This document shows positions 57,566 through 60,350 of a stretch of 64,000 nt of DNA, one piece after another. Position numbers and translations under genes: made by a program. This DNA comes from Alcaligenaceae bacterium (GTDB lineage: Bacteria; Pseudomonadota; Gammaproteobacteria; Burkholderiales; Burkholderiaceae_B): the NCBI GenBank assembly GCA_012839585.1, contig DUNB01000113.1, positions 1 to 64,000 of the forward strand, read 5' to 3'. How positions within the stretch are numbered: the stretch's first letter is position 1; every line of letters starts with the position of its first letter. The notes under the pieces are model-generated. The model searched no databases, had not been told where the DNA came from, and saw only the letters and a list, made by a program, of their open reading frames with translations.

Positions 57566-57633
57566 TTTTAACTTAGGCTACAGCACACATCTGCCTTTTA
57601 CTCCCTTTAGCTTGGGCCGCAGCACAAATCTGT
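57566..57633. repeat. Imperfect tandem direct repeat (38-bp units, ~29/38 identity) spanning the 3' end of the TadE-like gene
   Basis: Minus strand: GACAGATTTGTGCTGCGGCCCAAGCTAAAGGGAGTAAA / GGCAGATGTGTGCTGTAGCCTAAGTTAAAAGGCATAAA. Confidence 0.75.
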
Positions 57634-58533
57634 CGTACAGCCAGTAGGCGGAGGTTGGTTTGCGTCTGGCGGTTGTCCAGGTTGAGCCGTAGAGGTCGGT
57701 GGCTGCCAGGGCTGCGTGGGTGAGGTAGGTGGCGTCCCAGGTTGGGATGGGCCAGTGCCTGGAGGTGTCCAAGGCGGCAGTGGAGAGGTGGGGTTAGCAT
57801 TGGGGTCGGACGGTGGCTCTGTACCTGTCTGAGGCGCTGTATCTGCGTCTGAGCCTGGTCCAGTAGGGGCAGAGCCACCACCTGAGCCAGGCGCGTGTGA
57901 TGAGGTATCAGCAGGTAGAGTTAGGTGACTGAAATAATGCTGAGGGGGCGTAGTGCTGACAGCACGATGGTCTGACTGCATAGCAACCTGTACCTCTGTG
58001 ACGATGGGAATGTAGCCGTGACGATAAGCCCGTTGGTAGGGACCTGAGAGCTGCCCCAAAAGAAAGGCAATGGCCTGACGTATTAAGGGAATAGCGGGTT
58101 GGTGCAAATAATGCAGCCGCAGATGCAGGGTATTGGCATCAAAGACCTGGGTGTGCCCCTGTTGGTATTGCAGTGCTTGGTAATCGAAGCGAACTGGTGT
58201 GACGGAGTTGGACGTAAGAGTGGGAAGGGAGTGTTTTTCTATATGCCAACGGTTGCTTTCTGGATTAAGGTCAAAAGACGCCCGCTGTTGTAAGGCTTTT
58301 ATAAAGGCCTCGTTGATAATGGTGGGATGAGCGTGTTGGGTTGCTGCGACTCTGGCCGTATCCAATAAGGCATGGTTTAAGGCCTGACGTAATAAGAGCC
58401 AGTAGGTGCTTTCATAGGCGGCAAAGGCGAACAATAAAAAGACCAGAATCAGGACCGTATGTTCTAGGCTGCTCGCGCCGCGCTGCGAGGGACGGGCAAT
58501 AAAAATAGGCATGAGGTTATTTTGAAATAACAA
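57607..58533 (-). CDS. TadE-like single-TM protein with long Pro/Gly/Thr-rich C-terminal tail
   Basis: RGASSLEHTVLILVFLLFAFAAYESTYWLLLRQALNHALLDTARVAATQ; tail PPGTGPSQPGTPPTSPTQPWQPP...CTTDLCCGPS. Confidence 0.7.
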   Translation of the reverse strand: MLFQNNLMPIFIARPSQRGASSLEHTVLILVFLLFAFAAYESTYWLLLRQALNHALLDTARVAATQHAHPTIINEAFIKALQQRASFDLNPESNRWHIEKHSLPTLTSNSVTPVRFDYQALQYQQGHTQVFDANTLHLRLHYLHQPAIPLIRQAIAFLLGQLSGPYQRAYRHGYIPIVTEVQVAMQSDHRAVSTTPPQHYFSHLTLPADTSSHAPGSGGGSAPTGPGSDADTAPQTGTEPPSDPNANPTSPLPPWTPPGTGPSQPGTPPTSPTQPWQPPTSTAQPGQPPDANQPPPTGCTTDLCCGPS

Positions 58534-60151: not shown

Positions 60152-60286
60152 TTAAGCAAATAAACGTTTGAACCAGTATTTCAGTGCTGCGATAGGGCGG
60201 TAACGAAACTGCTCTTCAATCGCTTTCTGAATAAGACGACGCTCTAAGTCGTCAGTCATATATTGGTTGCTATTTTGGTAAATCAT
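60152..60286 (-). CDS. Unannotated 44-aa small protein
   Basis: MIYQNSNQYMTDDLERRLIQKAIEEQFRYRPIAALKYWFKRLFA; below the track's length cut-off; preceded by a promoter-like sequence. Confidence 0.55.
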   Translation of the reverse strand: MIYQNSNQYMTDDLERRLIQKAIEEQFRYRPIAALKYWFKRLFA

Positions 60287-60300
60287 GATTGATATCCACG

Positions 60301-60350
60301 TTAGTAATCAGGGTTAACCCTATTATAGGGGTTAACCCTTACTAATGCAA
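60301..60350 (-). promoter_or_regulatory. Sigma70-like promoter with paired GGGTTAACCC operators
   Basis: Minus strand TTGCAT (60345-60350) - 17 bp - TATAAT (60322-60327); GGGTTAACCC at 60311-60320 and 60329-60338; outer TTAGTAA/TTACTAA inverted repeat. Confidence 0.7.

Follow-up and report, generated by a model that had tools for sequence, protein, structure and literature searches.

The 44-aa open reading frame (ORF) at 60152-60286 on the minus strand of the window analyzed here (the whole stretch of DNA, 64,000 nt) is, on comparative evidence, a genuine, unannotated, chromosomal protein-coding gene that is conserved across the Alcaligenaceae. Its promoter carries a pair of GGG-W4-CCC sites around the -10 box, and such a twin site recurs mostly before tiny uncharacterized proteins in the Alcaligenaceae and Burkholderia. 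This shared layout points to an undescribed small-protein regulon with one putative regulator. On balance, we lean toward the joint reading that the gene is real, that it is repressed via the paired sites by a common putative regulator of small proteins, and that its product docks on a partner protein. Small proteins are usually encountered singly; one well-conserved operator would here mark a set of small proteins, unannotated or known only as DUFs, in two families, to which Achromobacter, Bordetella, and Burkholderia belong, and would offer a direct handle on the regulator and on the inducing condition of the whole set.

A conserved small-protein gene behind rlmL

The ORF is listed with an ATG start and encodes MIYQNSNQYMTDDLERRLIQKAIEEQFRYRPIAALKYWFKRLFA. 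The gene order on the minus strand is rlmL, the 44-aa gene, the gene for an RDD protein, and hsp33, and the promoter of the 44-aa gene lies in the 83-bp gap that separates the rlmL end (60370) from the ATG (60286) (Table 1). Homologs, which we term family A, were found by protein search, accepting E values of up to 0.1 per genome, in 177 of 269 Alcaligenaceae genomes and 30 of 43 genera, and the best match outside its own genome had an E value of 1e-15. The first-pass annotation had placed the ORF at this position and had let its proposal stand or fall with protein-level conservation among relatives, which is present. The family A core reads LTDELERQLMxQAIEEQFRxKP, and 10 residues are invariant in an alignment of 40 sequences (D12, L14, E15, R16, L18, A22, E24, Q26, R28, and P31). 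The synonymous bias that the annotation had suggested looking for was also seen: pN/pS in the core was 0 to 0.46 (13 pairs), and codon differences were most frequent at position 3 (0.61, versus 0.36 and, at position 2, 0.24). Given this conservation and these pN/pS values, we consider the ORF to be more than a chance reading frame. Homologs beyond its own genus are mostly 56 to 64 aa long, with a C-terminal tail that is absent from the 44-aa protein. Outside the Alcaligenaceae, matches to family A were weak and confined to a second family (f31), the Burkholderiaceae, in which one genome (G545) has DNA with 87% identity to that of Burkholderia arboris.

Family A had no family match in Pfam, NCBIfam, or PHROGs. 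The 44-aa protein and 14 homologs did not match the DUF1127 (PF06568) or DUF3563 (PF12086) profile above the cutoff, and neither family A nor its paralog family B (below) had a Pfam match to the phasin profile (PF09361). Rfam and plasmid-origin searches returned no match. The best match in the PDB (E value of 0.049) spanned 31 residues within a 231-aa chain that is unrelated, and it was taken as chance.

Table 1. The 44-aa gene and its promoter elements, in positions of the window
Feature	Position	Strand	Basis
Small protein gene, 44 aa, family A	60152..60286	-	ORF list, homologs, alignment, pN/pS
-10 box TATAAT	60327-60322	-	Sequence; consensus match
-35 box TTGCAT, 17-bp spacer	60350-60345	-	Sequence; TTGCNN at the equivalent place in relatives
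Operator copy 1, GGGTTAACCC	60329-60338	.	In the spacer, directly upstream of the -10 box
Operator copy 2, GGGTTAACCC	60311-60320	.	Covers the predicted transcription start (about 60315)

A paired operator around the -10 box

Two exact GGGTTAACCC palindromes flank the TATAAT, in agreement with the twin operator described in the first-pass annotation, and the ATG lies 36 bp past the -10 box, where it had been estimated at about that distance. The promoter had also been called strong, which holds for the -10 box, a perfect consensus, but not for the -35 box, which matches TTGACA at only 3 of 6 positions; because of this, a simple sigma-70 scan omits the promoter. In the 2,319,607-base assembly, the exact palindrome occurs only in these two copies. 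When one mismatch was allowed, the same genome held 68 matches versus 75 for the reversed control, so that what stands out is the exact pair. A wider regulon of single GGGTTAACCC sites with one mismatch in this genome was thus rejected.

The operator is retained with family A. We compared 80 family A loci, fetched by protein similarity alone, with 1,508 control windows from the same loci; the 80 are not all independent events, since many come from closely related Achromobacter, but more than 12 genera are represented. An exact GGGWWWWCCC lay within 200 bp upstream at 79 of the 80 (3 of the 1,508 control windows), and a pair of sites, each with no more than one mismatch, was likewise found at 79 (1 control window). 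The center-to-center distance of the copies is 17, 18, or 19 bp, and a copy abuts a TANA(A/C)T -10 box in 97 of 101 family promoters, at loci preselected for at least one copy. The operator center differs among A/T words, and the part that is kept consists of GGG, four weak pairs, and CCC. The stricter pattern GGGTTWACCC-N6-9-GGGTTWACCC was present in 57 of 269 family genomes, compared to 0 for its reversed control.

The twin site recurs ahead of other small-protein genes

A search of 12 genomes found the twin pattern at 0 to 4 places in each, and its reversed control at 0 places in 11 genomes and 1 in the other. The second twin GGGWWWWCCC site of the 44-aa gene's own genome lies on contig C60, at the promoter of a paralog of 80 aa (L206:4655-4897) that carries the motif WTDSIERSVM. 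This paralog belongs to family B, whose members are 77 to 80 aa long, many with a GSQW or GTQW end, and have a like promoter in Achromobacter (L211), a Pollutimonas-type genome (L209), and other genera. More twin sites precede paralogs in three genomes (G005, G209, and G227), with two in tandem in G227. A profile built from members of family B and of family C, a distant relative, recovered the superfamily in 208 of 269 family genomes, many with 2 or 3 loci. Twin sites also stand ahead of short ORFs beginning MANIKLALAGNA... (L210, L256) and MANAVKNMM... (L255) and of a 63-codon ORF in G183 (L321).

The Burkholderiaceae have twin sites ahead of DUF3563 proteins (PF12086, E values of 1e-21 and 6e-9) and ahead of a third short family. 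Conversely, when loci were chosen by PF12086, 25 of the 30 had an exact site no more than 220 bp upstream, with none in control windows of the same loci, and the DUF3563 promoter of Burkholderia cenocepacia has the same layout (CTAGGGTTTTCCCTATAATTCGGGAAAACCCTAG). DUF3563 proteins are uncharacterized, about 50 to 60 aa long, and share the promoter layout CTAGGGTTTTCCCTATAATNNGGG(W4)CCC with the 44-aa gene; however, they have no sequence homology to the 44-aa protein, and family A has no PF12086 match. Superfamily membership, the same-genome paralog, and the reach of the operator into the Burkholderiaceae were all absent from the first-pass annotation.

The GGG-W4-CCC motif is not perfectly specific for small-protein genes: four twin-pattern matches (L208, L212, L215, and L260) and several single-site matches lie upstream of ordinary genes or have no clear gene after them. 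The twin GGGWWWWCCC small-protein regulon is a class defined in this analysis, within which the 44-aa gene falls by its two GGGWWWWCCC sites, its TATAAT-type promoter, and its ORF of less than 100 aa. Our literature search found nothing relevant on the operator motif or DUF3563; most subscription journals lay outside the search, and we make no claim of priority. In B. cenocepacia J2315, a member of a family that carries this operator, highly expressed small proteins have been described (PMC7798474) that are hypothetical, respond to stress, and mostly have start sites of their own; the text of that study contains neither "motif" nor "DUF."

The 44-aa protein as a candidate adaptor

The AlphaFold (AF2) model of the 44-aa protein is one helix spanning residues 6 to 43, with modest confidence (pLDDT of 72, pTM of 0.31). 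The distinctive amphipathic character ascribed to this helix in the first-pass annotation was not borne out, given that its Eisenberg moments (0.19 and 0.25) were reached by 41% and 23% of shuffles. Polar residues are frequent among the invariant ones (D12, E15, R16, E24, Q26, and R28), and we therefore favor docking on a partner protein. A short, helical, non-enzymatic protein of this kind would act on a specific partner, as DUF1127 proteins do on the sensor kinase PhoR. The DUF1127 proteins (YjiS, CcaF1, and the Agrobacterium SDPs) are often shorter than 50 aa, predicted to be helical, and Arg-rich; they act by protein-protein or RNA binding, and small members bind PhoR (PMC12501420). Family A resembles them in being small and, by prediction, helical but has no PF06568 match. 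Together, the invariant residues and the DUF1127 analogy suggest that the 44-aa protein is most likely a non-enzymatic adaptor that is DUF1127-like without being a DUF1127 member. DUF1127 was present in only 1 of 18 Alcaligenaceae and Burkholderiaceae genomes tested, and it is conceivable that family A functionally replaces it.

We also considered that the C-terminal ALKYWFKRLF could form a helix that inserts in the inner membrane, making the product a membrane-surface peptide. The C terminus is indeed aromatic-basic with a net charge of +3, but the helix moment does not exceed that of shuffles, Achromobacter and Bordetella homologs carry the non-aromatic RALAAGLRKLAHG at this place, and the invariant residues fall mostly in the N-terminal half. 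We regard membrane insertion as unlikely, and partner docking remains our preferred mode of action.

Predicted regulation by a common factor

The combination of a protein gene with a tight paired operator in its promoter supports the regulated small protein proposed by the first-pass annotation; its response to stress or a signal, also suggested there, is putative. The 44-aa gene would have a sigma-70 promoter of its own in the gap behind rlmL, and a dimeric regulator bound to the two GGG-W4-CCC copies that straddle the -10 box would exclude RNA polymerase; release of the regulator would then allow the small protein to be made. Binding should repress because copy 2 covers the predicted transcription start and copy 1 the spacer, and we infer repression from this placement of the sites; they could instead be occupied by an activator or by a nucleoid protein. 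The shared layout is also consistent with a common regulator, such that one regulator-operator pair would control family A and the 77- to 80-aa paralogs of family B and, in the Burkholderiaceae, family C and the unrelated DUF3563 proteins. A broader and more tentative proposal, to which we give somewhat less than even weight, is that an undescribed factor of the Alcaligenaceae and Burkholderiaceae reads GGG-W4-CCC pairs at the -10 box, its targets being mainly tiny, partly non-homologous proteins that replace the near-absent DUF1127 proteins as adaptors of signaling proteins.

The main rival on regulatory grounds is a granule role, in which the 44-aa protein would be a phasin-like accessory of polyhydroxybutyrate granules under joint control of PhaR. 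Many family A genes do have the phasin-promoter box TTGTTGCRNYGCAACAA about 100 bp upstream (18 of 86 above the 98% control level), and the box was also found for family B (4 of 13), family C (2 of 2), and DUF3563 genes (4 of 26). However, no such box was seen upstream of the 44-aa gene, its own genus is absent among the high scorers although its own phasin promoter has one, the assignment of TTGTTGCRNYGCAACAA to PhaR is itself presumptive, and there is no phasin homology. A granule role is thus, in our estimation, still less probable than membrane insertion. As a separate observation, the phasin genes compared (L291 to L302, with L298 from the same genome as the 44-aa gene) have TTGTTGCRNYGCAACAA upstream in common, likely a PhaR site.

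That the palindromes form an RNA hairpin (a terminator or processing signal for rlmL read-through) rather than a DNA operator appears very improbable. The pair can fold into an 11-bp stem (-19 kcal/mol with its downstream sequence), and the copy centers are complementary in 42 of 94 pairs versus 34 expected, with 0.6% of shuffles reaching 42. On the other hand, a T-run is missing after the pair, copy 1 precedes the predicted start of the gene's own transcript, more than half of the pairs are non-complementary (TTAA/TTAT, TTTA/TTAA) with only GGG, W4, and CCC kept, and the same sites stand ahead of unrelated genes elsewhere in the genomes.

Least probable of all, and rejected, is that the 44-aa protein is a ribbon-helix-helix (RHH) autorepressor binding GGGTTAACCC at its own promoter: the protein is small and basic, its RLTDELERQL is what we take to resemble the start of some RHH proteins, and the genome holds a single exact target, but where an RHH protein has an N-terminal strand with conserved DNA-contacting residues followed by two helices, the would-be strand here varies (NVAKDARL, YQNSNQYM, HYNAQAAM) under an identical operator, the AF2 model, at its modest confidence, is all helix with no strand, no Pfam RHH family matched, and the operator also serves the unrelated DUF3563 proteins. 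The small protein itself is probably not the regulator, given that the N terminus varies under a constant operator, unrelated proteins share that operator, and the AF2 model is one helix.

Additional features in and around the locus

A further TATAAT (60044-60039, in the segment 60031-60044, minus strand) lies 7 nt ahead of the ATG of the RDD-family gene, and a TATAAT is similarly near this ATG in three relatives; being so near, it suggests that the RDD mRNA may be leaderless. The element TGAACGAAACGTTCA was found in the 5' leader of family A genes of Pusillimonas/Pollutimonas-type genera (L088, L089, L092, L093, and others) and is absent in the window. Its arms covary (AA/TT in 29, AG/CT in 5, AT/AT in 1, and one broken), in the manner of a hairpin in the 5' mRNA or of an additional operator. 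A 308-aa ORF at 57607-58533 (minus strand), between ftsB and hsp33, has a weak TadE-like N terminus (E value of 9e-4) and a long Pro/Gly-rich C terminus.
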